Shown in pieces: positions 2,622-34,342 of a stretch of DNA of 34,342 nucleotides. The notes under the pieces are model-generated. The model did not search any database. It had not been told where the DNA came from and saw only the letters and a list, made by a program, of their open reading frames with translations. A program made the translations under genes and the position numbers. This DNA is from a delta proteobacterium MLS_D (GTDB lineage: Bacteria; Desulfobacterota; Syntrophia; Syntrophales; UBA2210): NCBI GenBank assembly GCA_002030015.1, contig LQBH01000016.1:1-34342 (forward strand). The letters run 5' to 3'. Within the stretch, counting starts at the first letter, position 1. Every line of letters begins with the position of its first letter.

Positions 2622-4025
2622 GTGAGATACCTCAAAACGGTGTCGCCGGCTATTCTTATTGTTCTTCTTGTAGCGGTTTCACTGTTTTTTTTCTTTCGCG
2701 ACCGTGAAAAGGAACCGCTTTCGCCCGCTCTCGAGGATATCATGGAGCGGGGTGAGTTGGTGGTGCTCACTCGAAACGCTCCAACGACATATTATTTCGA
2801 TCGGAACGAACAGCCTGCGGGCTTCGAGTATGATCTTGTCAGCCGTTTCGCTGAATGGTTGGGTGTCCCGGCCCGTTTCGTCGTCGAACACAGCGTCGGC
2901 GAAATCATGGACGCCCTTGAGCGTGGTGAGGCACATCTCGCTGCCGCTAACCTGACGAAAACCGAGCCTCGGGCGCAACGTTTCACGTTTGGTCCTCCCT
3001 ACATGGAGGTTGAACAACAGGTAGTGTGCCGGCGCGGGGGTAATTGTCCCGATTCCATCGAAGACCTCGATTCGGTTTCTCTGATGATAATTTCCGAGAG
3101 CAGTTACGAGGAACGGTTACGAGAGATCAGGGACACAATGCTCCCGGAGCTGTCCTGGCAGGCAATGCCGGGGCTTTCTACGGAGATGATCCTGCAGAAG
3201 GTCTGGGAGGGCGAGGTTGACTGCACCGTGGCGGACTCGAACATTGTCCAGAAAAACAGGCGGTTTTTCCCGGAGCTGGTCGTCGCCTTTCCGATCACCG
3301 AACCCCAGGAGCTTGTCTGGCTGCTGCCCAAGGGCGCCGACGACCTGGTTCATTCGGTGAAAACATGGTTCGACGAGTTTGTGAATTCGAATACATTTTC
3401 AGCCATTCATACGCGCCATTACGCCCACGTGGAGATATTTGACTATGTTGATATCACCCGATTTATGCGAAGCGTGGATGAGCGGCTTCCCCGTTACCGA
3501 TCTTATTTTGAAGAGGCGGCCGAAGCATACGGTTTTGACTGGACGCTCCTTGCCGCAATGGCGTACCAGGAATCCCACTGGAACCCGGACGCACGGAGTC
3601 ACACGGGCGTGCGAGGCATTATGATGCTGACGCTGGACACGGCTGCCGATCTTGAAATTGAAGATCGTGTCGACGTGGAAGCGAGCATTGACGGGGGCGC
3701 CCGATACCTGGCTCAACTGCGTGAACGACTGCCGGAAGCCGTCCTGGAGCCGGACCGGACCTGGATTGCGCTCGCGGCGTATAATATCGGCATGGGGCAT
3801 ATTTATGACGCGCGTGCCCTGGCTGAACACTATGGCTACGATAAAAATACCTGGGCGGGCCTGCGCGAAGTTCTGCCGAAACTGGCACAGCCGGATTATT
3901 ACCGATACCTGCGCTTCGGTTATGCCCGGGGCGGCGAACCAGTGCTTTACGTGGCACGGGTGAGGAACTACCAGCAGGTTCTTGAGCGCGTGCTGGAGTG
4001 GGAAGATAGTAAGGGGTGGCTGTGA
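2622..4025 (+). CDS. MltF-like membrane-bound lytic murein transglycosylase
   Basis: The 467-residue protein has the MltF layout: an N-terminal membrane anchor (about residues 8-25), a periplasmic solute-binding-protein family 3 domain (about 40-265; GELVVLTRNAPTTYYF, GFEYDLVSRFAEWLG, ANLTKTEPRAQRFTFGPPY), then a C-terminal lysozyme-like SLT domain (about 290-410). The catalytic Glu is expected at residue 317 in AYQESHWNPDA, followed by GVRGIMMLT and LAAYNIGMGH. The enzyme cleaves the MurNAc-GlcNAc bond of peptidoglycan to give 1,6-anhydro-MurNAc; the SBP-like domain regulates it in known MltF. The start is GTG, preceded by GGGAAGG. I give no symbol because orthology to E. coli mltF is only by domain order. 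Confidence 0.9.
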   Translation: MRYLKTVSPAILIVLLVAVSLFFFFRDREKEPLSPALEDIMERGELVVLTRNAPTTYYFDRNEQPAGFEYDLVSRFAEWLGVPARFVVEHSVGEIMDALERGEAHLAAANLTKTEPRAQRFTFGPPYMEVEQQVVCRRGGNCPDSIEDLDSVSLMIISESSYEERLREIRDTMLPELSWQAMPGLSTEMILQKVWEGEVDCTVADSNIVQKNRRFFPELVVAFPITEPQELVWLLPKGADDLVHSVKTWFDEFVNSNTFSAIHTRHYAHVEIFDYVDITRFMRSVDERLPRYRSYFEEAAEAYGFDWTLLAAMAYQESHWNPDARSHTGVRGIMMLTLDTAADLEIEDRVDVEASIDGGARYLAQLRERLPEAVLEPDRTWIALAAYNIGMGHIYDARALAEHYGYDKNTWAGLREVLPKLAQPDYYRYLRFGYARGGEPVLYVARVRNYQQVLERVLEWEDSKGWL

Positions 4026-5045: not shown

Positions 5046-5900
5046 TCAGTCGTTTGGCGCCGTTTTTCTTTCCAGATCGAGTATCGGCGCGATTGCCTGC
5101 GAGAATGCCTTCGCGGCTTCCGTTGTGTTGTAATGGTAGACGAACGGTGTGCCGTTGTCGGAGGCATCCACTATTCGGGGATCAATCGGAATGCTTCCGA
5201 GAAATGCCACGTCCATTTCACGGGCCATTTTTTCTCCACCCCCGGTCTTGAATATGTCGATGACGGTGCCGCAGTTGGGGCACGTGAGCCCGCTCATGTT
5301 TTCCAGAACACCCAGCACGGGCACGTTGACCTGTTTACAGAAGTTGATGCACTTGCGGACGTCGTTGAGTGACAAGTTCTGCGGTGTTGTCACGATCACG
5401 GCGCCGTCGCAGCCGGGAAGCAACTGTGCTATGGACAACGGTTCATCTCCCGTCCCGGGAGGAAAATCTATAATCAGGTAGTCCAGTTCACCCCAGTTCA
5501 CCTCGGTGAGAAGCTGCTTGAGGACGTTCATTTTCATCGGGCCCCGCCAGATTACCGCGTCGTCACGGTTCGGAAGAAGGAACCCTATGGACATGACCTT
5601 GAGCGTTTCGCTGAACGTCACGGGCAGAATCGCGTCGCCGTCGCTTCCGGGGCGCTGGTCTTCGAGGTTGAGCAGCGTTGGAATACTGGGCCCGTGAAAA
5701 TCACTGTCCAGGAGACCGACCTGTTTTCCTTCCAGAGCAAGGGCGACGGCGATGTTTGTCGCGACGGTACTTTTCCCGACTCCTCCCTTGCCTGAAAGCA
5801 CCATAATCTTGTGTTTTATCTTGCTCATGCGATCGGTGAGTTCCTTGCTTTCCGTGTACGCCTTGAGCCGATCTGCGGACGTTTGCTTTTCGTCGCTCAT
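5046..5900 (-). CDS. Mrp/NBP35-type iron-sulfur cluster carrier ATPase
   Basis: The 284-residue protein is an Mrp/ApbC/NBP35 P-loop ATPase that binds and transfers Fe-S clusters. Seen: deviant Walker A GKGGVGKS at residues 37-44, switch motif LLDSDFHGPS near 63-72, IIDFPPGTGDEP near 143-154, and the C-terminal CPNC at 207-210 whose two Cys bridge a 4Fe-4S cluster between dimer subunits. It is the last gene of the five-gene minus-strand cluster, and its ATG overlaps the TGA of the DUF89 gene (ATGA at 5897-5900). In Desulfovibrio an MRP-family gene belongs to the orange-protein (ORP) gene set, which fits this context. Housekeeping Fe-S assembly is the alternative role. Confidence 0.92.
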   Translation of the reverse strand: MSDEKQTSADRLKAYTESKELTDRMSKIKHKIMVLSGKGGVGKSTVATNIAVALALEGKQVGLLDSDFHGPSIPTLLNLEDQRPGSDGDAILPVTFSETLKVMSIGFLLPNRDDAVIWRGPMKMNVLKQLLTEVNWGELDYLIIDFPPGTGDEPLSIAQLLPGCDGAVIVTTPQNLSLNDVRKCINFCKQVNVPVLGVLENMSGLTCPNCGTVIDIFKTGGGEKMAREMDVAFLGSIPIDPRIVDASDNGTPFVYHYNTTEAAKAFSQAIAPILDLERKTAPND

Positions 5901-6829
5901 GTTTTTTTCCTCTCTTGTTGTGTAGTGTTGTTCAAATAGAAACGTTGTGCGTCGCCGTTGGTTGACGGGTCTCCGTTCAATAACACGAGATCGCCCACGT
6001 CGCAGCCTATGTCATCGGCGATGACCGGGCATTTTGCCGTGAGGAGAAAAAATATATTTTCTTTTGCATTCGAAAGCGATTCGTAATTTCCCTGCCCTTT
6101 GGCAAGTATCAGGTCGGCCCCGAAATAGCACTCCAGGAATTCATGTGAACAGGCGTCCAGTTCCACTCCGGGGAAGGCGGCACCCGTGTCTATGATGCGA
6201 ACCATGTCCGCGAGGCCGATCAGCTCAGCGTCTTCCCTGGTGGCGTCGTTGATGATCGGTCCACCACGAACGGCAAAGATTATGTCGAGGTTGGGTTCGC
6301 GCGCAAGCAGCAGTCCGATCAGAAGTTTGTCAAGTACGATTTCACCCGCGTTGTCACCCAGGTAGAGCAGCGTCTGTGACTGGTGAAGGGTTTCTTCGAA
6401 GTGGTCGAGAAGAAAAAGAGTCTGTTCCCCGGCAGTTGTGATGCCGTCGAAAATTCTGTGGATATCGGACCATCGCCGTTCGGGCCCCATGTCGATAAGG
6501 TTGCCTGTCCCCGCCAGTTTCAACGCTCCCTCCAGCGGCGACGGTGACTCGCCGATTCGATCCGCCAGCTCCTGTTCCATTTCCATGATTGCTTCATTGT
6601 GTTGCCGCTTGATCTCTTTGTAGGGATCCGGATTGCCGGTGATGTCTTTCACCGTTTCATGGATCATTCGGCCCATTTTCGGCGGTGTTGTGCCGTCGGG
6701 AATATCGGCCAGTATCTGCATAATGGAAGAAAGGATTCGCTTCTGCGTTTTTTCGTCGGCACCGGCGATCCTCCCGGCATCCAGGGTTTGTCTCACGAAA
6801 CAGGGATAACAGTCGAGATAGATTTTCAC
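5897..6829 (-). CDS. DUF89 / ARMT1-like damage-control phosphatase family protein
   Basis: The 310-residue protein matches the archaeal/bacterial branch of DUF89 (AF1104-like). Motifs seen: N-terminal CYPC at residues 7-10 (CYPCFVRQ), the metal-binding GDNAGE at 158-163, and AKGQGNYE in the C-terminal third, together with Asp residues expected to hold a divalent metal. Family members studied elsewhere are metal-dependent phosphatases acting on damaged or side-product phosphometabolites; the substrate here is unknown. The start codon is GTG at 6829, forming a GTGA overlap with the upstream ATPase stop, and its stop overlaps the Mrp start. Such double coupling suggests it works with the Fe-S ATPases. 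A cofactor-assembly role is inference. Confidence 0.88.
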   Translation of the reverse strand: MKIYLDCYPCFVRQTLDAGRIAGADEKTQKRILSSIMQILADIPDGTTPPKMGRMIHETVKDITGNPDPYKEIKRQHNEAIMEMEQELADRIGESPSPLEGALKLAGTGNLIDMGPERRWSDIHRIFDGITTAGEQTLFLLDHFEETLHQSQTLLYLGDNAGEIVLDKLLIGLLLAREPNLDIIFAVRGGPIINDATREDAELIGLADMVRIIDTGAAFPGVELDACSHEFLECYFGADLILAKGQGNYESLSNAKENIFFLLTAKCPVIADDIGCDVGDLVLLNGDPSTNGDAQRFYLNNTTQQERKKT

Positions 6830-7719
6830 GCCGTGCCCCCGTCAAGTGTCGTAACGACGCTGTTCCAAAGGTTCCTGATGTCGGAGGACACATCACCGTC
6901 AGCGAAAGCAATGATGCTGGTCCCGGCGATCTGGGCGCGCGTGACGGACGTGTCGTACCGAACCCGACCCGCCGGTCTGACATTGTGTTCACGGGCTTCC
7001 TGTTCTATCTGCCCGGTGATGTCGGCGTTCAGATCCCACTTGTTGACACAGACAATGGTGGGAATACGGAAAAACGACGTCAGCTCGGCGACACGAAGGA
7101 GATCGTGACGGCCGGAAAGGGTCGGTTCGGTTATGACCAGCACGAGATCCGCCCCTGTTATAGAGGAAATGACCGGGCATCCGACGCCCGGAGATCCGTC
7201 GACGATGATGTAGTCGAGATTTCCTTTTTCGGCGATACTCCGCGCTTCCTGTCGGATCTGTGAGACGAGTTTCCCCGAGTTTCCTTCCGCCATGCCGAGT
7301 CGCGCGTGTACCATTGGTCCGTACTTTGTCGAAGATACGTACCACTCACCGTTGACGGCCGGTTCGAAGGATATGGCGTCGGTCGGGCATACTCGAAAGC
7401 AGACACCGCAGCCTTCACAGAAAATATGATTTATGTGGGGCGTATCCGTTTTCCCCGAATCGGAATAGGAGATAGCATCGAAACGGCACTCTTCAATGCA
7501 ACGGTCACAACCTATACAATTTTCTTCGATGACGGAGGCTTTCTTGCCGCCGCTGAAATCTTCGCGACGTTCGATTTTGGGATTGAGAACGAGATGGAGG
7601 TCTGCCGCGTCTACATCACAGTCCGCCAGAACGGCTTCCCCCGCGAGAGCCGCAAACGAGGCGACGATGCTTGTTTTCCCGGTTCCTCCCTTTCCGCTTA
7701 TGACGACTATCTCTTTCAT
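6826..7719 (-). CDS. MinD-superfamily P-loop ATPase with inserted 2x[4Fe-4S] ferredoxin domain (first copy)
   Basis: The 297-residue protein combines a MinD/ParA-type ATPase with a ferredoxin insert. Seen: Walker A GKGGTGKT (residues 9-16), two four-Cys clusters (Cys68/71/74/78 and Cys101/104/107/111) and the Walker B-like IIVDGSPGVGCPV segment after the insert. The open frame extends to 7788, but the family begins at MKEIVVISGKGG, and AAAGGAAG precedes the ATG at 7719, so I use that start. It lies 4 bp after the second ATPase gene and overlaps the DUF89 start (GTGA). Related pairs occur in the ORP gene set of Desulfovibrio (DVU2103/DVU2104 type). The role is probably Fe-S or metal-cluster handling driven by ATP; the exact reaction is unknown. 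Confidence 0.92.
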   Translation of the reverse strand: MKEIVVISGKGGTGKTSIVASFAALAGEAVLADCDVDAADLHLVLNPKIERREDFSGGKKASVIEENCIGCDRCIEECRFDAISYSDSGKTDTPHINHIFCEGCGVCFRVCPTDAISFEPAVNGEWYVSSTKYGPMVHARLGMAEGNSGKLVSQIRQEARSIAEKGNLDYIIVDGSPGVGCPVISSITGADLVLVITEPTLSGRHDLLRVAELTSFFRIPTIVCVNKWDLNADITGQIEQEAREHNVRPAGRVRYDTSVTRAQIAGTSIIAFADGDVSSDIRNLWNSVVTTLDGGTA

Positions 7720-7723
7720 TTTT

Positions 7724-8617
7724 TCACACTTCCTTTGCTGTACCGTCGGAATCCGGCTTGTTCGACGCCTCGTTTCCACTGAAGGCACGTATCCTGTCCC
7801 AACATGTTTTAAAGGTTTTTAAATATTCGGGTAATTCCCGCACAACCATTGAACCCCGTGAATAGGCTTCGGCTATTCTGCGATCGTCAGGTATTTCCAG
7901 GAATATCTCGATATTTTCCCGGCGACAGTACTCGGCAACCGCCTCGTCGCCCACGTCCGACCGGTTTATGGCGACGGCAAAGGGAAGATGTAATGCCTGG
8001 GCCATGCCCACGGCGAGCTTCAGATCGTTGAGTCCGAACGGTGTTGGTTCCGTTACCAGGAGGACGAAATCGGCGTCTTTCACGGCTTCAATGACGGGAC
8101 AGGATGTTCCCGGGGGTGAATCAATGATGAGCACATCCGGATCACCGGTGGATTTTTTAACTTCACTGATAACGGCGGGCGACATGAGCTCGCCGATGTT
8201 CAGAAGACCTTGTGTAAAGGTGATTCCCCCGGAGGATCCTTTTTCGATGACACCGACTTCCCGGGGTACTTCTACAAAGGCGTCTTCGGGACAGAAGAGC
8301 AAACAGGCGCCGCATCCATGGCAGAGTTCCGGGAAAATAAGGACTTTGTTTTTCACCACGGCGATTGCGCTGAATTCACATACCTCCGCACAAATACCGC
8401 AACCCGTGCATTTTTCTTCGATTACTTGCGGAATCATCACTGTAACGGGTGACGAGGATTCTATCTGCGGTTTCAGAAAAATATGGCAGTTCGGCTCTTC
8501 CACGTCGCAGTCCAGCAACTGGACGTTTGTCCCCGTGTCGGCAAGTGTCAGGGCAAGGTTCGTCGCTATCGTCGTCTTTCCGGTGCCGCCTTTTCCGCTG
8601 GCGATTGCAATTTTCAC
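7724..8617 (-). CDS. MinD-superfamily P-loop ATPase with inserted 2x[4Fe-4S] ferredoxin domain (second copy)
   Basis: This 297-residue paralogue of the neighbouring ATPase has Walker A GKGGTGKT at residues 8-15, ferredoxin cysteines 70/73/76/80 and 99/102/105/109, and IIDSPPGTSCPV after the insert. In the first cluster the residue after the fourth Cys is Glu (CEFSAI) rather than Pro. The two copies are equal in length and adjacent (4-bp gap), so they probably form a heterodimer, as proposed for the paired ATPases of the ORP cluster. It comes after the NifX/ferredoxin gene with a 76-bp gap. MKIAIASGKGG at the very N terminus confirms the start. Confidence 0.92.
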   Translation of the reverse strand: MKIAIASGKGGTGKTTIATNLALTLADTGTNVQLLDCDVEEPNCHIFLKPQIESSSPVTVMIPQVIEEKCTGCGICAEVCEFSAIAVVKNKVLIFPELCHGCGACLLFCPEDAFVEVPREVGVIEKGSSGGITFTQGLLNIGELMSPAVISEVKKSTGDPDVLIIDSPPGTSCPVIEAVKDADFVLLVTEPTPFGLNDLKLAVGMAQALHLPFAVAINRSDVGDEAVAEYCRRENIEIFLEIPDDRRIAEAYSRGSMVVRELPEYLKTFKTCWDRIRAFSGNEASNKPDSDGTAKEV

Positions 8618-8693
8618 AGGCGATTGCTCCTTTCAAAAAATGCTGTTTCGTGCTTCGGCCTGATCCGGCCTGGCTTTTCAGCCCCCAAAGTCG

Positions 8694-9551
8694 TCACGTC
8701 ATGCTGATTGCACCAAGCGGGCACTGGTTGACGCAGATGCCGCATCCGGTGCAGGCATGCTCGTCGATAACAGCGATATCGCCCAGACTGATGGCGTTTA
8801 CGGGGCAGGAACTCACGCAGACGCCGCATCCCGTGCATTCCTCCGCGTTGACGAACGCGACCGAGGGGGCGCTTCTTCTCTGCGGTGCATCGTCGATATG
8901 ACGCCTGATATCCTGAAGTCTTTGTTCGAGGAGACGTGCTTCTTCTCTGAGGCTTTCTATATCGTCTCTTCCGCTTACTCCGGATTGCGGCGCTTGTCCG
9001 GAAGGAGGTGTCAAACCGCCGCTCATGCCTGTACCACGGCCCATGCCCATGCCGCCGCCCATGCCTGTACCACGGCCCATGCCCATGCCGCCGCCCATAC
9101 CCATACCACGGCCCATGCCCCGGCCCATGCCCATGCCACGACCCATACCGGCGCCCATGCCCATACCGGCACCCGTGCCGCCGCCGCTTCCTGAGCCGAA
9201 GTGGCTTGCCACGTTCGGCTGATCTATTGTCGAGAAAGTCCCTGACTTGAATTGCTCGGCTGCGTGACGGGCGGTTCCGCTGACACCCGCTATAACATGA
9301 ATGCCGGCGGCCTGAAAAACCTGAAAGGCATTGGGGCCGCAGTTTCCCGTCAGCACATAGCGTACATCCTTTTCAGACATGAGCTGTGCCGACTGAATAC
9401 CCGCCCCTCCCCCGGCCGAGACGTTGGGATTCCGAACGGATTCGAATTCCATGGTATCCGTGTCCACGAAGACATAGTAGGGGGCCCGGCCGAAGCGGGG
9501 TTCCACGTGGTCATCAAGTGACGGGCCCGTTGTTGTTATTGCTATTTTCAT
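8694..9551 (-). CDS. NifX/ORP-like (dinitrogenase Fe-Mo cofactor) domain fused to Met-Gly linker and 2x[4Fe-4S] ferredoxin
   Basis: The 285-residue protein has three parts. Residues 1-115 are a NifB/NifX/NafY-type domain (MKIAITTTGPSLDDHVEPRFGRA, VLTGNCGPNAFQVFQAAGI), the fold used by the Mo-Cu orange protein ORP. Residues about 119-180 are nearly pure Gly/Met/Arg with 14 Met. A helical stretch (about 195-225, Glu/Arg/Leu-rich) leads to two [4Fe-4S] motifs, CTGCGVCVSSCP and CTGCGICVNQCP, at the C terminus. The open frame reaches 9611, but the NifX domain starts at the ATG of 9551, preceded by AAAGGA. It heads the minus-strand cluster. Binding of a metal-sulfur cofactor is likely by family; nitrogenase involvement is unlikely because no nif genes are seen. 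Confidence 0.88.
   Translation of the reverse strand: MKIAITTTGPSLDDHVEPRFGRAPYYVFVDTDTMEFESVRNPNVSAGGGAGIQSAQLMSEKDVRYVLTGNCGPNAFQVFQAAGIHVIAGVSGTARHAAEQFKSGTFSTIDQPNVASHFGSGSGGGTGAGMGMGAGMGRGMGMGRGMGRGMGMGGGMGMGRGTGMGGGMGMGRGTGMSGGLTPPSGQAPQSGVSGRDDIESLREEARLLEQRLQDIRRHIDDAPQRRSAPSVAFVNAEECTGCGVCVSSCPVNAISLGDIAVIDEHACTGCGICVNQCPLGAISMT
9015..9197 (-). repeat. Met-Gly-rich low-complexity repeat inside the NifX/ferredoxin gene
   Basis: Imperfect repeated units encode GMGMGRGMG / GTGMGGGM blocks, 14 methionines in about 50 residues. On the opposite strand the same DNA opens frames rich in Pro/Met/Arg, which are artefacts. Similar Met/Gly-rich tracts are found in small anaerobe proteins of the DUF5320 type, often near NifX-like genes. 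Confidence 0.85.
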
Positions 9552-9599
9552 TGTTGCGGCATCCTTTCTTCCGTGATTATTATCTGAAATCGATAGATA

Positions 9600-9623
9600 C
9601 GGCCACGGCAATTACCGTGGCCG
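9600..9623 (-). promoter_or_regulatory. Perfect 9-bp hairpin in the 5' region of the NifX/ferredoxin cluster
   Basis: CGGCCACGG and CCGTGGCCG flank a 6-base loop, a perfect GC-rich stem. It lies about 50 bases upstream of the first start codon of the cluster. There is no U-run on either side, so it does not look like an intrinsic terminator; it could stabilise or control the leader mRNA. Confidence 0.6.
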
Positions 9624-27138: not shown

Positions 27139-27215
27139 CGGGGCGTGGCGCAGCCTGGTAGCGCACCTGCTTTGGGAGCAGGGAGTCGGGGGTTCAAATC
27201 CCTCCGCCCCGACCA
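27139..27215 (+). tRNA. tRNA-Pro (anticodon UGG)
   Basis: A full cloverleaf can be folded: acceptor CGGGGCG/CGCCCCG, D arm with AGCCTGGTAG, anticodon stem CCTGC/GCAGG around the loop TTTGGGA (anticodon TGG), T arm with GGTTCAAATC, discriminator A and encoded CCA at 27213-27215. It is intact, and its 3' end is the attachment site of the downstream element. Confidence 0.97.
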
Positions 27216-27256
27216 GTTATTTCAAGGGGTTGCGGTTTATTCTGTGACCCTTTTTT
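27205..27256 (+). repeat. Attachment-site repeat, copy A (tRNA 3' end plus terminator)
   Basis: This 52-bp segment recurs 130 bp downstream with 42 of 52 positions identical and no gaps. The first 11 bases (CGCCCCGACCA), the tRNA acceptor end, are identical. Duplication of a tRNA 3' end is a hallmark of integration by a tyrosine recombinase. Confidence 0.8.
27224..27256 (+). terminator. Rho-independent terminator of tRNA-Pro
   Basis: AAGGGGTTGCGG and CTGTGACCCTT pair imperfectly (a bulge and G-U pairs) around a 6-base loop and are followed by T6. It starts 9 bases after the tRNA. Confidence 0.6.
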
Positions 27257-27269
27257 AGTCATAAAGTGT

Positions 27270-27293
27270 TCGGGGTACAAATCGGGGTACAAA
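27270..27293. repeat. Tandem 12-bp repeat TCGGGGTACAAA x2
   Basis: Two perfect copies lie directly head to tail between the two attachment-site copies. The GTACAA core recurs in the pair at 27402-27421. It is a likely protein-binding site pair, for example for an integrase or excisionase. Confidence 0.6.
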
Positions 27294-27334
27294 TAAAAAA
27301 CATTAGAAACAAAAAAAGGGGGCAGGATTGCTCT

Positions 27335-27386
27335 CGCCCCGACCATGAAAATCAAGGGGTTACGGGTTATACCGTGACCCCTTTTT
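27335..27386 (+). repeat. Attachment-site repeat, copy B
   Basis: This is the second copy of the tRNA 3' end (CGCCCCGACCA at 27335-27345) and the following terminator, 130 bp after copy A. It has no cloverleaf upstream and so is not a tRNA gene. It marks either the true element boundary or the end of an earlier insertion. Confidence 0.75.
27354..27386 (+). terminator. Rho-independent terminator, copy B
   Basis: AAGGGGTTACGG and CCGTGACCCCTT form a 12-bp stem with one G-U pair, a 6-base loop and a T run. It is better paired than copy A. On the minus strand it could also stop transcripts from the phage genes. Confidence 0.7.
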
Positions 27387-27401
27387 GCTGGAAAAAATAA
27401 T

Positions 27402-27453: not shown

Positions 27454-28257
27454 TTACCGGCCAGAAGACATCCTGCTAGCCCGCATCGCCTTGACATATT
27501 TGCTTTCTATCGTCCGCCAGGGGATTTCATGCCCGACCAGTTCACCCTGCCGATCTGCGATCCGATGGCACGCTCGACGAACCGAAAGTCCCTGGCGTTG
27601 ATAGTCCTTGACTAGCCCGACAACGTCCTCGCGAGTCAGTTTTTGCTTGACCTTGGGATCGGTGATCAGGTCGTTTTCGGTGGGTTCGATGAACTTCTCC
27701 TTGTATTTGTCCGCCATTGATTTCACGACCCGCATCACCTTTCGATGATCCACCTTGAACATTTCAGCGACCTCATCACCTTGGAAACCAAAAATATTGA
27801 CCAGCAAAAACCATTTTTCCCGGTCCGAAAATCGGCTGTTGGTGACTCGCTTGATCCCTGTACTGCGCATATCCATAATTTGAATGATCTTGAAAAGCAC
27901 CTTCTTCGCGCTTCCATACAGTGATTCGATAGTTGAAACAGTTACCCCGTAACGCTCTGCCAGTTCGCTTGCGGGAACCTTGTTAAAAAACCGCTCGATA
28001 AAAACAGCAGTCTGGCGGAGCTCGGTGTCGCCTGATGACCACGGGATTTTGTCATCGGTCGAAAAAATATTATCGATTTTGTTTAGGGCGGAAAACTGTT
28101 TCACAGCGCTGCTGCCGGTGTAAACCTGTATGCGGTCCGAAAAGTGCTTTTCGAAACATTTGTTGTCGTGCCAGAGAATTTTGTTCACCTCCTGGCACGG
28201 CGACCTGCATGTATCGTATTTTTCGCATTTGAGACATCTCCCTCTTTCTATGTCCAT
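27454..28257 (-). CDS. Cys-rich helix-turn-helix protein of the phage element
   Basis: I do not recognise the family of this 267-residue protein. The N terminus has four cysteines (CLKCEKYDTCRSPC, spacing C-x2-C-x5-C-x3-C) that could bind zinc or an Fe-S cluster. At least two helix-turn-helix candidates follow: VPASELAERYGVTVSTIESL (about 92-111) and FQGDEVAEMFKVDHRKVMRVV (about 156-176), with a third basic helical region in the C-terminal 60 residues. A DNA-binding regulator is likely, perhaps of the sigma-like or late-gene type. The start at 28257 is set by AAGGAGGG at 7-base spacing; the ATG at 28263 is too close to that site. It lies last in the element's gene order, next to the attachment site. 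Confidence 0.7.
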   Translation of the reverse strand: MDIERGRCLKCEKYDTCRSPCQEVNKILWHDNKCFEKHFSDRIQVYTGSSAVKQFSALNKIDNIFSTDDKIPWSSGDTELRQTAVFIERFFNKVPASELAERYGVTVSTIESLYGSAKKVLFKIIQIMDMRSTGIKRVTNSRFSDREKWFLLVNIFGFQGDEVAEMFKVDHRKVMRVVKSMADKYKEKFIEPTENDLITDPKVKQKLTREDVVGLVKDYQRQGLSVRRACHRIADRQGELVGHEIPWRTIESKYVKAMRASRMSSGR

Positions 28258-28279
28258 TATCATCCCTCCTTTTTGGGGA

Positions 28280-29392
28280 TTATTTCTGGATCGTGTTCAT
28301 GTTTTCTAACTGCCGCACCTCATCAATCGTTAAGAACCCCGCCTCGAGGGCGATTTTATAAGCTTCATAACGACTCTTCGTGTCTGCCCGCAAGAACCCG
28401 GCAGTTAAGTGTTCGATAAAATATTTTTCCTTCTCCTGTTCTGTTAGCAATGCCTTCGCCATCGCCTGTTCGATCCGATCAAGCCATGGTTGCAAGGTAT
28501 GCGTCAGGAAGCTGCGATTCTGCTCAGTAACGTTACTGTACGTTGACCGTTCGTAATCCATAATTAAGTTCAGTGGTACCCGGAAGACGCGGGCAATTTC
28601 GACAACGGAGAATTTCTGCGATTCGATCATTTGTGAATCTTCCGGCGTTATGCCGATGGATTGCCACTTGAGGTCGTTATCCAGGATTGCAGTTTTGTGC
28701 TTATTGCCGTGTCCCTGATAGCCTTTCTTCCATGATTCCCGGAGATTCGCGAAACTCTCCACCGACAGTTTTCCCGGCGTTGAGAGTATGCCGCCCGGTG
28801 TGCCGTCATTCTTGAAGAAGTTCGCAGAGTAACTCGATATGGCCAGACTGTGGCCAAAGGTGTCCCGAAGCAGGGCCAGCGGCGACAAGCCGACAATGCC
28901 ATCGTCCGACAATCCTTTAATGTGCAGAATGTCTTCCGTGGAATAGGTTCGCTCGGCACCGTCAGTTTGATGCCTATAGACAACCTCTTTTCCGACCACC
29001 TCGACTGTCACCCGATCAGGATGAAGCGGCCAAAGGGCGACGACCTCGCCGCCGTCGCGCTCAACGTAACAATAAGCGTTTCCCCTCAAGCACAGATGGC
29101 CGACCAGAAGCTCTCGAAGCTCGAAGGACGTCATAAGCGGGTTCGGTGAATCGTGCAAAATACGGTACAGGGAGAAGCCCCGTGCGCGCTCGCGATCTTC
29201 ATTTTCCATACGTTCATACGTAACCAGCGGCAAGGCCGCGATTGCCTCCGACAGGACACGAATACAGGCGAAAACCGCCGGAATGCCCAAAACGTCGGCA
29301 TCGCTGACCCGCATCCCTGACGTTGTTTCTCGGTCCTCGAGGGCGTCAAGATTCGCCCAGGATCGTTTTTTAAAAAATGGTGGTATTTTCAT
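28280..29392 (-). CDS. HK97-family phage portal protein
   Basis: The 370-residue protein forms the dodecameric portal at one capsid vertex, through which DNA is packaged. Family features seen: IPAVFACIRVLSEAIAALPLVTYER at about 36-60, NPLMTSFELRELLVGHLCLRGNAYCYVERD, VALWPLHPDRVTV, DILHIKGLSDDGIVGLSPLALLRDTFG, and VVEIARVFRVPLNLIMDYERSTYSNVTEQNRSFLTHTLQPWLDRIEQ in the C-terminal third. The protein ends at LTIDEVRQLENMNTIQK, shorter than many portals (about 400-430) but past the conserved core. GGGAGCTGG precedes the ATG. Unusually it comes after, not before, the capsid gene. Confidence 0.92.
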   Translation of the reverse strand: MKIPPFFKKRSWANLDALEDRETTSGMRVSDADVLGIPAVFACIRVLSEAIAALPLVTYERMENEDRERARGFSLYRILHDSPNPLMTSFELRELLVGHLCLRGNAYCYVERDGGEVVALWPLHPDRVTVEVVGKEVVYRHQTDGAERTYSTEDILHIKGLSDDGIVGLSPLALLRDTFGHSLAISSYSANFFKNDGTPGGILSTPGKLSVESFANLRESWKKGYQGHGNKHKTAILDNDLKWQSIGITPEDSQMIESQKFSVVEIARVFRVPLNLIMDYERSTYSNVTEQNRSFLTHTLQPWLDRIEQAMAKALLTEQEKEKYFIEHLTAGFLRADTKSRYEAYKIALEAGFLTIDEVRQLENMNTIQK

Positions 29393-29411
29393 TTTTCCAG
29401 CTCCCTTTCAG

Positions 29412-29439
29412 GGGGGAGCGGCCCCTTCGGACCGCCCCC
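29412..29439 (-). promoter_or_regulatory. GC-rich hairpin between the 155-residue gene and portal
   Basis: On the minus strand GGGGGCGGTCC and GGGCCGCTCCCCC pair around a GAAG loop with a small bulge. It lies just after the stop of the 155-residue gene and before the portal ribosome binding site. With no U-run it may protect mRNA or set relative expression rather than terminate. Confidence 0.5.
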
Positions 29440-29451
29440 GCCGGTTGCATT

Positions 29452-29919
29452 TTATTCCTTCAGGAGGGAACCCGAGGGCTTATAACGCGTTTCTACGATG
29501 GCGACGCCGGTCAGGTTGAGCGCCGACGCCTGACTTCCAAAATTCAAGGCGATCCAAGCATTACCGGAAGGAACCGCCGCGACATCGACCTCGATCACCC
29601 ACATGCGGTCATCGTCATCGGTCATTTTCCAGTAATTCTCATCCGTCTCGTAATCAACGGCCGTGAGGGTGTCAGCCGCAGCTGCTTCAATGTCCGCCGT
29701 GGTGCGGAACGCTCTATTGACGGCGCCCATCGTGCCGACAGCCGCCGCTTCATCCGTCCCATATTCAACGGTAACTCGAGCGCCTGCCGTCGTAATTCCG
29801 GCGGTCAGGATGACAAAAGTGACCGTATGCGCCGTGCCGACATAAAGGCCGGCAGTTTGTTTTCCGCCTTCGTAATCGTCGAATTTAACGACGGGAACTA
29901 TCTGAAATCTTTCGCTCAT
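29452..29919 (-). CDS. Phage structural-type protein, unknown (155 aa)
   Basis: I do not recognise this acidic, Ala/Thr/Val-rich protein. Its alternating hydrophobic pattern (AHTVTFVILTAGITTAGARVTVEYG, WVIEVDVAAVPSGNAWIALNFG) suggests a beta-sandwich, as in capsid decoration, tail-tube or Ig-like virion proteins. It lies between the major capsid gene (27 bp after its stop) and the portal gene, a place where head decoration or head-completion proteins are often found. AAAGGAAAAA precedes the ATG. No signal peptide or membrane segment is present. Confidence 0.7.
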   Translation of the reverse strand: MSERFQIVPVVKFDDYEGGKQTAGLYVGTAHTVTFVILTAGITTAGARVTVEYGTDEAAAVGTMGAVNRAFRTTADIEAAAADTLTAVDYETDENYWKMTDDDDRMWVIEVDVAAVPSGNAWIALNFGSQASALNLTGVAIVETRYKPSGSLLKE

Positions 29920-29946
29920 GGCATTTTTCCTTTCTTTGTTGTGTTG

Positions 29947-31647
29947 TTAGCTCTTGCGTGCACCGAGACCCACAGCCCACGATTGCGAAATACCGTTTTT
30001 GGGGGTTATGGCCTCGTTCCAGGTTCCTTGCCCGTCGAAGCGGACGATGGCGCGATAGCTCATCAAATCCGCGTCCCATCCGGGGATATTTGATTTTTCA
30101 ATCCGCAGATCCCGCCTCATGCCAATTGCATATTGACTCACATCAACGAACATGAGGTCGTCTTCCTCGCCAAGTTCGGGCAGCTGCGAAGTAAAGAGAA
30201 CCGGTCTCGTCAAAATCGTGAAGGCTCCCGTACCCTGCATAACGGGAACGTGTTCACCGACGTCGCCGATAGGGATTGCCAGGGAAAGCAGTTCAGGAAT
30301 GATTGAATCGTTTGCTATCCAGATACCCCGGCGCCGTCCGGCGGGGTACATGGCCGCAAACATTGCGGTCAGATTTTCCCAGAGCAGGGTTGCGTCTGCC
30401 TGGCCATCTGACTTTTCGATCGTGATCTTCGCCACATCGTTTCGAATGCCCTTCGGCTCGGCACCGCCGACACCATTGATAAAGGCGTTGTCGAGGCCGT
30501 AGGCGATAGAAACTTTCATTGCTCGATCAAGCTGTGAATCGACGCCCTGGCCGTCTTCGTGGAGCTCACTGGAAATGTCAACAAAGATGGCGCCCTTTTT
30601 CGCCTTGAGCTCTATTGCGCGAAGCTTGCCTTTTTGCTTTGTGCCCGTTCCGCCTTCCGCGAGGAACTCCATACTGAACCCACCGAAAAGCACACCGCCG
30701 GTCTGATCGGCTGCGTCCCATCCAGCGACCTTTCTGGTTGCGCTGTCCATGGGCCATACGGTTGCCCGTGGGCGTATGATCTCCGACTCAATGGAATCAT
30801 CCAGCCACTTTGCAGCCAGGGGCTCGGGGACACTGAAGCCGCCCGCCGTAGCCGTACCGGCGACCATAGCGTCGCGGAATTCACGGATCATGTCCTCGTT
30901 GACTTCCAGAGAGCGTCCTTCGTGGAACATTCCCGCATAGCTGCGATCCGTTGCAGGGCCGCCGCCGACCTCGATCATGGAACGACCCGTCTTTTTCACA
31001 TCCGGTGTGAAGGTTGCCGGTTCCTTCCGAGCCGCCGCCATTTCAAAAGCTTCAAGCCGGGAATCCAGGGACCGGATTTCGTTTTTGAGTTCTTCCAGGC
31101 GTTCGGAGTCTTCCCCGGAAGTAGCCAGTTCTGCCAGCTCATCGGCTGCGGTTTTCTTCGCTTTCAGTATGTCGTTTTTGTCCATTTTCGTGATTTTCCT
31201 TTCATCGTGATTTCGGTTAATGCCGACTGTCGCGTCGGCAGGCGCGGCCACAAGACTGGCCTCGTAGGGCATCCATCGCGTTGCGGTGTAGCCGTTCTTG
31301 GTCTTCCTTTTTTTTAAGACCTGGTAACCAATGCTCAGGTTTCTGACGATCCCGTCGCAGATATCCCGCCACAGTCCGTCCTGATTTGAAGACAGCCGAA
31401 TCACACCCCGAAGACGCCCTTCGGCAAGCTCGAGATTTTCGACAACGCCGACCGGTAAAGAACGGTTGTCGTGGGCCTTGAGCAGGGGTAGTGGTGCCCT
31501 GGACAGGTCCACGGCGCCGGGTTTGTGACTCAACACTTCTTCCCCGTCGATACGGCGGACCGGCGTTTCCGACGAAAGTGACGCCCCAACGGTTCGTTCC
31601 TCGGTCCTGACGGTACTTGCATCAATTTCAAAAGTTCGCGTGTCCAT
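29947..31647 (-). CDS. Prohead protease-major capsid protein fusion (HK97 type)
   Basis: One frame of 566 residues encodes two proteins normally separate. Residues 1-150 are an HK97-type prohead serine protease: catalytic His59 in LLKAHDNRSLPVG, Ser105 in VRNLSIGYQV and acidic YEASLVAAPAD near 128-137. Residues about 155-275 are helical with Lys/Glu/Asp (scaffold or delta domain), and the rest is the HK97 capsid fold (RPRATVWPMDSATRKVAGWDAADQTGG, FINGVGGAEPKGIRND, PVLFTSQLP, VDVSQYAIGMRRDLRIEKS). The start at 31647 follows AGGAGG. An in-frame ATG at residue 155 (31185) preceded by AAAGGA could give free capsid protein. The upstream frame to 31764 is not needed. Confidence 0.92.
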   Translation of the reverse strand: MDTRTFEIDASTVRTEERTVGASLSSETPVRRIDGEEVLSHKPGAVDLSRAPLPLLKAHDNRSLPVGVVENLELAEGRLRGVIRLSSNQDGLWRDICDGIVRNLSIGYQVLKKRKTKNGYTATRWMPYEASLVAAPADATVGINRNHDERKITKMDKNDILKAKKTAADELAELATSGEDSERLEELKNEIRSLDSRLEAFEMAAARKEPATFTPDVKKTGRSMIEVGGGPATDRSYAGMFHEGRSLEVNEDMIREFRDAMVAGTATAGGFSVPEPLAAKWLDDSIESEIIRPRATVWPMDSATRKVAGWDAADQTGGVLFGGFSMEFLAEGGTGTKQKGKLRAIELKAKKGAIFVDISSELHEDGQGVDSQLDRAMKVSIAYGLDNAFINGVGGAEPKGIRNDVAKITIEKSDGQADATLLWENLTAMFAAMYPAGRRRGIWIANDSIIPELLSLAIPIGDVGEHVPVMQGTGAFTILTRPVLFTSQLPELGEEDDLMFVDVSQYAIGMRRDLRIEKSNIPGWDADLMSYRAIVRFDGQGTWNEAITPKNGISQSWAVGLGARKS

Positions 31648-31693
31648 GTTTCCTCCTGGTTGTCGGGCAAAGAAAAAGGGCAACAATGAAGTG

Positions 31694-31707
31694 GTGAGGC
31701 ACCTCAC
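31694..31707. repeat. 14-bp palindrome between terminase and capsid genes
   Basis: GTGAGG and CCTCAC flank CA. It lies in the 153-bp gap before the capsid gene and may be part of an RNA hairpin or an operator. Confidence 0.4.
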
Positions 31708-31775
31708 TGCCGCCCTAATTCTTTCTTGCGTTCCCTCCGCCTGGCCGGACATCGGGAAACCCACTTTTTTTTAAC

Positions 31776-31800
31776 CAAAAAACCTCCGGCGATTACCGGA
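31776..31800 (-). terminator. Weak terminator after the terminase gene
   Basis: On the minus strand TCCGG and CCGGA form a 5-bp stem with a 6-base loop followed by GG and T6, immediately after the terminase stop codon. The stem is short, so it may only attenuate. Confidence 0.35.
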
Positions 31801-33414
31801 CTACATCCACCTGACTTCGGGGTGCACCTCCTTTCCAGCGTTCCGCAGCGCCCCGTCCAGGGCCATGATCGTCGAAACGACTAGGTCAATTTTTTCCCTC
31901 GACCTTTTTTTGGAGGGCTTGACATTCCCCGCTGCATCCACTTCGGTGATAACGTTTCCGAAGCACCACCGCAGCACGGGATTTTCCGAAAACTTGATTT
32001 TTCGTTCCAGTATCAGTTTTTCAAGTTCCTTGGCCGGAGGACTCATTGACGCAAATCCCTGGCCGAATTCTATGACCTCCAAACCCATCGCTTCAAGTTC
32101 TGCCACGATCCGTGCGGCGCCCCATCGGTCAAAAAGGACTGCTTCCAGACTGTATTTCTTCGCCACCTCGTCCAGACGGGCAAGGATGTAATCATAGTCA
32201 ATCACGGTTCCCGGCGTTGCCTCGATATACTTCTGTTTCTCCCACAGCTCATAGGGAACGTGGTCAGCCTTTGATCGGCGTTTGATCGCATCCTTTGGGC
32301 ACCAGGCATAATGAAGCGTCCAGAACGGTTCTCCGTCCATCACAGGGGGGAAGCATAGCGACAGGGCACACAAATCTTGTGTACTGGCAAGATCAAGACC
32401 GCCATAACATGTCCGGCCCGTCAGATCGGGAATTTTGCTGACACAGGCGTCGAAGTCTGCCGACGCGATCCACTTCGCTGCTGCATCGACTCGCTGGTTC
32501 AAATACAGCGCCCGGAAAATTGACTCCTTCGCCGGAATCTTCCGCGCCTGCTCCGCAAAGTTTTTCATCTCTTCCAGGGACCGGAAGTCGCCCAATGCTG
32601 GATTGCAGTCGTGCCAGACCTGTTCATCCCACGGATCGGCGTCGTCTGGCGCTGCAAATGCACAGCCGTAGAACGATGGATCAGGGGGAAGGGTGCCGTC
32701 CTCGATTTTTAAGGCATAATCGACTAGCTCGCTCATGATGTGTGCCGGTGAAGGTGACTGAGTGCTGATAACAATCATCAGAGGTTCGGCCCGTGCGCCG
32801 GTGCCGGTGGTTAAATTGTCGTAAAGCTCCCGATCGTGGGATTGAGCTAGTTCATCGTACACCATAAATGACGGCGACAGACCGTGTGCCTTTCGCGCGT
32901 CCGACGAAAGCGCCTGATATGATGATCCCGTTTTCAGGTCCGTGATTGTTCGATGGAATGCTTGAATGTGACATCGCTCCGAAAACTCGGGCACCCTCAG
33001 AATTATTGCTTCCATCTCACGATAAATAATTGCTGCTTGCTCCCTATCCGCAGCTGCTGAGAAAACCTGTCCTCTTGATTCCGCCTCGGGGCCCAACAAG
33101 TGACACAGCGCAAGGGCTGCCGCCAAAGCTGTCTTCCCGTTCTTCCGTGGTACGGTTATCACGCCGGTCCGCACCTGCCGCCTGCCGTCAACGTCAACGG
33201 CATACAGGGCCCGGACGATCTCTCGCTGCCACGGACGAAGGATCAGCTTCCGACCGGCATGGACACCGGAAGTAATCGGCAGGAATTCACAGAAGGCAAT
33301 GACACGTTCCGCCCGTGAGAGACCGCGTTTATTCCAGGGCAGCGTTTTCCGACGAGAGCGGGCCTGCGGTTTCGCCGCCATGACCGAAGCTGTTTTTGGT
33401 CCTCTTTTACCCAT
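31801..33414 (-). CDS. Phage terminase large subunit (TerL)
   Basis: The 537-residue motor protein packages DNA into proheads. The ATPase half has Walker A PRKNGKT (residues 89-95) after the LRPWQREIV adenine-binding region, Walker B FMVYDE (183-188) and a coupling motif VISTQ. The nuclease half has acidic residues in GGLDLAST, VLFDRWGA and KIDLVVSTIMALDGA. It matches the Terminase_1 (YmfN-like, P27-linked) family and is of normal length. The first 20 residues (MGKRGPKTASVMAAK) resemble the N terminus of P27 small terminases. The Shine-Dalgarno AGAGGAG is about 11 bases from the ATG. HNH lies directly upstream. Confidence 0.95.
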   Translation of the reverse strand: MGKRGPKTASVMAAKPQARSRRKTLPWNKRGLSRAERVIAFCEFLPITSGVHAGRKLILRPWQREIVRALYAVDVDGRRQVRTGVITVPRKNGKTALAAALALCHLLGPEAESRGQVFSAAADREQAAIIYREMEAIILRVPEFSERCHIQAFHRTITDLKTGSSYQALSSDARKAHGLSPSFMVYDELAQSHDRELYDNLTTGTGARAEPLMIVISTQSPSPAHIMSELVDYALKIEDGTLPPDPSFYGCAFAAPDDADPWDEQVWHDCNPALGDFRSLEEMKNFAEQARKIPAKESIFRALYLNQRVDAAAKWIASADFDACVSKIPDLTGRTCYGGLDLASTQDLCALSLCFPPVMDGEPFWTLHYAWCPKDAIKRRSKADHVPYELWEKQKYIEATPGTVIDYDYILARLDEVAKKYSLEAVLFDRWGAARIVAELEAMGLEVIEFGQGFASMSPPAKELEKLILERKIKFSENPVLRWCFGNVITEVDAAGNVKPSKKRSREKIDLVVSTIMALDGALRNAGKEVHPEVRWM

Positions 33415-33461
33415 AAAATGTTAGACTCCTCTAACTTACTAAAAATTGCACCAATCGCCGG

Positions 33462-33803
33462 TTAAACCGCGTCCCTATCCGATGATTTTTTTCGGTTTCC
33501 GTGTACCTGGTTGTGGCACCGTGCGCATAGAGCCTGCACATTATCGGGATCACACTCCGCCCCGCCGGCGGACAGCTCAATGATATGATGCACTACTGTG
33601 GCCGGGACTGCCTCACCGGCAGCCTGGCACCGTTCACACAGCGGGTGCTGCCTCAAATACCACGCTCGGAACCGCCGCCACCTAGAAGACGTATAGAACG
33701 AATCCGCCACCTTCTGGGGTACCTCCCGAGCGTGCTCCTCACAGTACCGACCCACCGTTGCAATCCTGTTGCATGGGAACGCAGCGCAGTAGCGAGGCTT
33801 CAT
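33462..33803 (-). CDS. HNH endonuclease, phage-associated
   Basis: The 113-residue nuclease has the HNH core: CERC (Cys56, Cys59), HHIIEL with His72-His73, the Asn of DPDNVQAL and CARCHNQVH with Cys93, Cys96 and His101. The N terminus adds a possible zinc site (Cys6, Cys11, Cys21, His24). HNH proteins encoded beside TerL take part in DNA cleavage during packaging in HK97-like and cos-type phages. Its ATG overlaps the stop of the preceding 93-residue gene (ATGA at 33800-33803). Confidence 0.92.
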   Translation of the reverse strand: MKPRYCAAFPCNRIATVGRYCEEHAREVPQKVADSFYTSSRWRRFRAWYLRQHPLCERCQAAGEAVPATVVHHIIELSAGGAECDPDNVQALCARCHNQVHGNRKKSSDRDAV

Positions 33804-34081
33804 GTGAACGCCATCCGCCCTTTCATTCCCTCAACGTCAAGGCCGTCATAAGCCGACTGCGGATAGATGGTCCCTTCCTCAGTGACTCTGACACCCTCCA
33901 CGATGAAGGCCTTCACTGCTGCCAGCAAGAACGCTTCAAGCTCTTTCTCCATGATCTTCTCAGGGGCCGAGATATCTAATAGCCGTCGGTACCTGTTGCC
34001 CTTGTTTATTACGTCCACTAATGTTGATTGGTAGGCTTCTTGCAAATCCGCCACTCTGTCCGTTTTGAATCTGTAATCCAT
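33800..34081 (-). CDS. Hypothetical phage protein (93 aa)
   Basis: I do not recognise this small acidic protein. It starts MDYRFKTDRVADLQEAYQ and appears mostly helical, with a central hydrophobic helix (ELEAFLLAAVKAFIVEGVRV) and a C-terminal part with YDGLDVEGMKG. The start at 34081 is set by AGGAGGGG six bases upstream; an open frame continues to 34153 but overlaps the upstream gene. Translation is coupled to the HNH gene by ATGA. A small packaging or early protein is possible from its position. Confidence 0.7.
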   Translation of the reverse strand: MDYRFKTDRVADLQEAYQSTLVDVINKGNRYRRLLDISAPEKIMEKELEAFLLAAVKAFIVEGVRVTEEGTIYPQSAYDGLDVEGMKGRMAFT

Positions 34082-34092
34082 GATATCCCCTC

Positions 34093-34188
34093 CTATAGTG
34101 CAATCCATCCGATGACCGATATGGCCAGCAAATAAATGCCTCCGATGAGGCAAACCATAAACAAAATGTTCTCCAATGTTCTGTGCAT
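34093..34188 (-). CDS. Tiny 31-residue single-pass membrane peptide
   Basis: A short frame encodes MHRTLENILFMVCLIGGIYL followed by LAISVIGWIAL: about 8 polar residues, then one 23-residue hydrophobic segment with a Gly-Gly pair. It follows AAAGGAG at 7-8 bases, and its TAG runs into the ribosome binding site of the next gene, so it fits the operon. It may be a membrane microprotein such as a holin-like or inhibitory peptide; the function is unknown. Confidence 0.6.
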   Translation of the reverse strand: MHRTLENILFMVCLIGGIYLLAISVIGWIAL

Positions 34189-34237
34189 GAGATGCTCCTT
34201 TCCTTGGCGGCTTGTTTTAAAAATAGAGAGTGAGCAT

Positions 34238-34262
34238 GTGGGCAAATCGTCAGATTGCCCAC
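34238..34262. repeat. 8-bp perfect inverted repeat
   Basis: GTGGGCAA and TTGCCCAC flank a 9-base loop. It lies about 50 bases upstream of the tiny peptide. With no adjacent U-run in the element's direction, an operator or leader hairpin is more likely than a terminator. Confidence 0.5.
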
Positions 34263-34273
34263 CCTACTTCTCT

Positions 34274-34306
34274 TACCTTCTTAATACCTTCTTAAAACCT
34301 ACTTAC
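34274..34306. repeat. 11-bp tandem repeats (TACCTTCTTAA x2 plus a degenerate third)
   Basis: Two perfect head-to-tail copies are followed by AACCTACTTAC. The period of one helical turn suits cooperative binding of a regulator near the start of the visible phage operon. The window ends 36 bp further on. Confidence 0.55.
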
Positions 34307-34342
34307 CCGGTAACTTTTTCCCACTCCAGGGACTACTTTTTC

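Follow-up and report, generated by a model that had tools for sequence, protein, structure and literature searches.

Phage head and packaging genes that run into a tRNA gene, with no tail genes beyond the portal, raise the question of whether they are the visible part of a prophage or the head module of a smaller mobile element. Here, we describe such a locus in the delta proteobacterium MLS_D (Syntrophales; GenBank GCA_002030015.1, genome G000), where an element at the tRNA-Pro(TGG) gene of contig LQBH01000016.1 (C16) is cut off at the right edge of the contig; the analysed stretch, called the window below, is this entire contig of 34,342 bp. The element is very likely a capsid-forming phage satellite of ~10 kb in the 3' end of tRNA-Pro(TGG), because complete relatives arranged alike occupy tRNA genes in distantly related bacteria. 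It would most likely live as a phage parasite, making a small head for itself and taking the rest from a helper phage. The evidence directly in place consists of attachment (att) repeats at both ends, on two contigs (C16 and C7), an integrase type that is tied to the capsid module in relative L058, and the conserved order HNH-TerL-(protease-capsid)-portal-helix-turn-helix (HTH).

Genes of the element

A preliminary description of the window had listed HNH, terminase large subunit (TerL), protease-capsid and portal genes and one HTH gene leading to the tRNA, and Pfam and PHROG matches and ARAGORN recover all of them there. The genes occupy the minus strand from 27454 to 34081 and read toward tRNA-Pro(TGG) in the order small open reading frame (ORF), HNH, TerL, protease-capsid, 155-aa ORF, portal, HTH. 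Family matches for the named genes are far above chance, and are strong for portal, capsid, TerL and HNH. From the tRNA gene inward, the features are:

27139..27215, plus strand: tRNA-Pro(TGG), the integration target (ARAGORN); its final 48 bp (27168-27215) are attL
27216..27300: left end of the element, with a terminator-like inverted repeat (27225-27251) and two GGGGTACAAAT repeats (27271-27294), by direct reading
27454..28263, minus strand: HTH protein, 269 aa, with an N-terminal four-cysteine motif; weak Sigma70_r4 match
28280..29392, minus strand: portal protein (PF04860, 6.9e-115)
29452..29919, minus strand: 155-aa ORF between capsid and portal; no family match, poor structure model
29947..31647, minus strand: fused head-maturation protease and HK97-type major capsid protein, 566 aa (PF05065, 1.4e-29; PHROG matches)
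31801..33414, minus strand: TerL (PF20441, 2.6e-48; PF03354, 6.4e-22)
33462..33803, minus strand: HNH endonuclease, packaging-associated (PF01844, 1.5e-11)
33800..34081, minus strand: small ORF, 94 aa from an ATG preceded by a ribosome-binding site, overlapping the HNH start (direct reading); at most a weak PHROG match, to a family of unknown function
C7:1912-1959: attR, a 48-bp copy of attL with one mismatch

The protease-capsid frame is open to 31764 (29947-31764), and the start conserved in relatives, at 31647, gives the 566-aa product. Its N-terminal part matches PHROG head-maturation proteases and its C-terminal part matches Phage_capsid (PF05065), a fusion common to nine aligned homologues (50-67% identity). 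The portal shares 64-75% identity with those of satellite relatives, TerL shares 74% with the TerL of the G450 element, and HNH shares 40-55% with HNH genes at the equivalent place in the relatives that cover that region. In a 17-row alignment, the HTH protein is 41-48% identical to its nearest relatives; its AlphaFold2 (AF2) model has three helical HTH-like units, and a fold search with the model returned no significant match, just pieces resembling sigma region 4. It is a probable DNA-binding protein and probably a late regulator or packaging factor, and could activate late genes or stand in for the small terminase (TerS), none of which was found within the assembled part of the element. The 155-aa ORF, absent from the gene list of the preliminary description, has no relative in the viral contig collection and matches no family; a head decoration protein is a guess.

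Relatives and hosts

Relatives were sought by scanning viral contigs with portal and capsid alignments, which yielded about two dozen close relatives, every one on a contig of ~11 kb or less. The complete relatives measure 9.6-10.4 kb, have exact 45-51-bp tRNA-derived repeats and carry an integrase, a regulator, a replication gene, HNH, TerL, protease-capsid and portal. These elements, and two others of agreeing size (L014 and L068), are:

L058: 10.1 kb, exact 51-bp repeat, tRNA-Pro GGG
L055: 10.05 kb, exact 45-bp repeat, tRNA-Val
L047, in genome G074: 10.2 kb, exact 48-bp repeat, tRNA-Lys
L083, more distant: 9.6 kb, exact 45-bp repeat
L125, in genome G450: 10.35 kb, exact 48-bp repeat, tRNA-Arg
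L014: 9.9 kb, 23-bp repeat
L068: 9.8 kb (contig of 9934 bp), circular by a 127-bp terminal repeat

The elements of G450 and L058 have the order of the window: integrase, small ORFs, AlpA-like and replication genes, HNH, TerL, protease-capsid, portal, HTH and att. AlpA and DnaD/O-like genes were found in relatives, and the corresponding part of the MLS_D copy is unassembled. L068 has the head module and no recognised integrase, and its 459-aa ORF (2631-4010) matches no family. Beside the complete satellite of L047 lies a second, 2-kb islet in tandem (G074:C3, 341-2371), bordered by 46-bp copies of the same tRNA-Lys repeat.

Host genomes were scanned as well (155 of the order and 395 of the phylum), and the same portal type occurs in G074 and G011 of the order and in G450 and, more distantly, G169 of the phylum; by this distribution of sequences, the family is widespread but rare in assembled genomes. 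In a portal tree, 23 loci group in one clade (support 99/97) to which none of the tested phage and prophage portals belongs; long branches among the outside rows leave their mutual order unsure. The nearest outside row, G169, also adjoins an integrase, tRNA-Arg and a primase-like gene. For many pairs of related head genes dS is saturated; the pairs that allowed an estimate have a ratio of nonsynonymous to synonymous substitution rates (dN/dS) of 0.04-0.12, and by these ratios the head genes are under purifying selection, functional rather than decayed.

The preliminary description had seen a head module without tails at the end of a tRNA-integrated element, and indeed no tail gene lies between the portal and tRNA-Pro in the window. 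Among 53 accessory ORFs of the relatives, Pfam gave 0 matches to tail, connector, holin or lysin families, and in PHROG searches of the relatives' ORFs the 25 commonest of the 70 families matched include none for tails, connectors or lysis. Ten genes of the G450 element and ten further ORFs gave no such match either. The scan was controlled on two resident prophages of MLS_D, on C39 and C29, in which it detected head-tail adaptor, tail and tape-measure genes; there the tail genes stand with their own terminase, portal and capsid genes; both prophages are candidate helpers. With an integrase and attR on C7, and with complete relatives of ~10 kb that carry integrase, regulator and replication gene and no detected tail or lysis gene, the proposal of a tail-less capsid-forming satellite is supported.

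A P27 TerS occurs among the relatives only in L014, L015 and L047, where it accompanies only the more distant type of TerL; no TerS was found together with a TerL of the MLS_D type among the relatives scanned. In these three loci TerL is 37-43% but the portal 64-72% identical to that of MLS_D, and TerL and P27 TerS seem to have been exchanged as a unit, with capsid and portal staying alike. The pattern of TerS presence and absence is a lead toward the HTH protein replacing TerS, and falls short of proof because L047 encodes both.

Ends of the element and integration site

The preliminary description had the element continuing beyond the window, and its far end was located on C7. A search of the genome with the tRNA end returned one further copy (C7:1938-1959), which aligned outward to the 48-bp attR, and a 404-aa integrase adjoins attR in the orientation that the far end would require. 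Inside both ends are pairs of GGGGTACAAA(T), at the left end on C16 and beside the integrase on C7, and comparable repeat pairs lie at both ends of L058; the two GGGGTACAAAT repeats at 27271-27294 are probable integrase arm sites. A related integrase and the capsid module are found on a single contig in L058, and C7 and C16 are taken as one element because the L058 integrase, with the same module on its contig, is 54% identical to that of C7.

Genome G100, of the same genus, has on one contig the order RdgB-tRNA-Pro-chromosome, an empty site, and on another this chromosomal stretch adjoining attR and an integrase of 56% identity, an occupied site; over the 193 bp that reach the tRNA repeat, the two contigs agree to 98.4%. 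tRNA-Pro is therefore a used integration site of the C7 integrase type. Integration is site-specific and flanked by direct repeats (48 bp, one mismatch; G100 sites), as in integrated satellites. Directly past attR on C7 (L019, 1975-2180) are about four tandem 52-54-bp units, each ending in the tRNA 3' sequence CCCTCCGCCCCGACCA, and G100 carries a similar unit.

The spacing from integrase to HNH is 2.4 kb in L058 and 2.0 kb in G450, and 1.06 kb is visible in the C16 and C7 copy, so that by analogy the unassembled middle would be ~0.9-1.4 kb and the whole element ~10-10.5 kb. The far-end check proposed earlier was thus answered in part by MLS_D itself, which supplies the integrase and attR, and in part by the relatives, in which size, regulator and replication gene are read.

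Proposed mechanism

In the satellite cycle that these genes suggest, a helper phage would induce the island, the integrase would excise it and the replication gene would amplify it, with AlpA and DnaD/O-like genes known from the relatives. The fused protease-capsid and the portal would assemble a small head sized for ~10 kb, into which TerL and HNH would cut and package the satellite's own DNA, the HTH protein possibly acting in place of the small terminase. The helper would provide everything outside the portal ring (adaptor, stopper and tail) as well as lysis. With connectors and tails both taken from the helper, the boundary between satellite and helper would fall at the portal ring.

Comparison with known systems

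Capsid-forming satellites have been reported from a limited range of groups, namely Enterobacteriaceae, lactobacilli, streptococci and others (PMC10803314) and Streptomyces (PMC10690885); our literature search found no report of them from hosts of this kind or from collections of metagenomes. According to the published gene list, capsid-forming phage-inducible chromosomal islands (cf-PICIs) carry genes for capsid, protease, portal, connectors, the two terminase subunits and HNH (PMC10690885), and they average 14 kb (PMC10803314). Like them, the present family consists of integrated islands with their own capsid, protease, portal, TerL, HNH, integrase and AlpA-like regulator (in the relatives) and no detected tail genes. 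Unlike them, it has no detected connectors and usually no TerS, its protease and capsid are fused, the portal follows the capsid, a cysteine-HTH gene comes last, and the size is ~10 kb against the 14-kb average. The preliminary description had called the layout a match to cf-PICIs, which is too strong: the element's own capsid, protease, portal, TerL and HNH genes and, in the complete relatives, the lack of detected tail genes agree, but connectors and, in most copies, TerS were not found, and the order of capsid and portal is reversed from that usual in phages. The element would work like a cf-PICI, with its own TerL and HNH, but lacks two of the listed features, its own TerS and head-tail connectors, and, going by these published descriptions, we do not file it as one.

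The Streptomyces satellites MulchRoom and MiniFlayer (PMC10690885; OQ784832) likewise encode their own capsid, portal and terminase, and in MulchRoom a tyrosine integrase is present too and no tail genes are annotated. MulchRoom differs in its TerS, scaffolding protein, adaptor, stopper, 1.6-kb terminal repeats, length of 14.8 kb and gene order; no adaptor, stopper or long terminal repeats were found in the G450 element. HK97-type prophages and phages (for example the Peptoclostridium prophage on NZ_CP007453 and Syntrophomonadaceae phage PV036453) have a portal 44% identical over nearly its full length, an HK97-type capsid and, in some, an HNH and P27 terminase neighbourhood. Their order is TerL-portal-protease-capsid-connectors-tail, whereas that of the element is TerL-protease/capsid-portal-end. 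The expectation that tails follow head genes in a normal phage is seen in these comparators; in the window, portal and HTH are followed by the att site instead.

A different island, L050 (G106:C160, ~6.0-15.1 kb), occupies the same tRNA-Pro and has a 58%-identical integrase, but encodes a stand-alone capsid protein, a TerS-like protein and an AAA_25 ATPase, and neither TerL nor portal was found in it. L050 is perhaps a satellite that swaps the capsid of its helper. The start of a similar island is present in G098, of the same genus as MLS_D.

Alternative explanations

An ordinary HK97-type prophage, with tail and lysis genes inside the unassembled gap between C16 and C7, is quite unlikely. The middle of this copy is unread and the genome does contain phage tail genes, but the integrase-to-HNH space is just 2.0-2.4 kb in same-order relatives, 1.06 kb of it already seen; the tail genes on C29 and C39 accompany terminase, portal and capsid genes of their own; and the att site comes where normal phages have their tails. 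Deletion would also leave a tail-less head module at an att site, as in a decayed, immobile prophage stripped of its tail genes, which we consider highly improbable: many elements share this size and tail-less order across different tRNA genes and across families of the phylum, with intact ORFs, low dN/dS and a monophyletic portal, and L068 assembles as a circle. That circle of 9.8 kb without a recognised integrase, together with the absence of encoded connectors, could instead point to a self-sufficient tail-less capsid element (phage-plasmid-like or agent-like) that requires no helper tail. We give this very little credence, as neither a lysis gene nor an entry device of its own was detected, portal and TerL are the packaging plan of tailed phages, and the complete relatives are mostly integrated. 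A bona fide cf-PICI (the family of Alqurainy et al. 2023) that has shed some of its genes is a possible, if doubtful, assignment; it accounts for the head and packaging genes, the integrase, the AlpA-like regulator and the lack of tails, but scans detected head-tail connectors in no complete relative and TerS in only a minority, and the fused protease-capsid, the portal after the capsid and the length of ~10 kb depart from the published cf-PICIs. The chances are about even that the element belongs to a separate, widespread family of minimal capsid-forming satellites that stop at the portal, with a fused protease-capsid and no usual small terminase, and that obtain connectors and tails from the helper.

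Several points weigh against the satellite reading. C16 and C7 are joined on the strength of their matching att ends and by analogy, not through reads; the middle of the MLS_D copy (~0.9-1.4 kb by comparison with G450 and L058) is unassembled, and the G450 replication protein found no match in the MLS_D genome. A partial second copy of the tRNA-end and terminator motif (27335-27390, 81% over 53 bp), just inside attL, could be the trace of an older tandem insertion. Helper use, induction and particles are inferred, and how a portal that lacks connectors would join a helper tail is hard to see. In the 16.3-kb L085, a distant relative with a capsid of 31% identity and a fused protease-capsid, the portal is followed by apparent tail chaperone and tape-measure ORFs; this type of head may extend beyond satellites, and L085 is possibly a phage of ancestral type. 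The second copy at 27335 also raised the possibility that the C7 integrase belongs to another tandem element, which was judged less likely because the outer end (tRNA, terminator and GGGGTACAA pair) is arranged as in L058.

Satellites of this layout form a coherent family in uncultured bacteria and metagenomes, with a gene set smaller than in the capsid-forming satellites compared. If the head truly lacks connectors of its own, it would allow a clean test of the part at which satellite head and helper tail have to fit each other. Among the short "viral" contigs of IMG/VR, many that carry head genes but no tails may be complete satellites, not phage fragments.

Additional observation

Elsewhere in the window, an ATPase/ferredoxin gene cluster (5046-9611) includes a minus-strand ORF (8694-9611) for a ferredoxin-motif protein, in which positions 9025-9222 encode a Gly/Met-rich low-complexity stretch.

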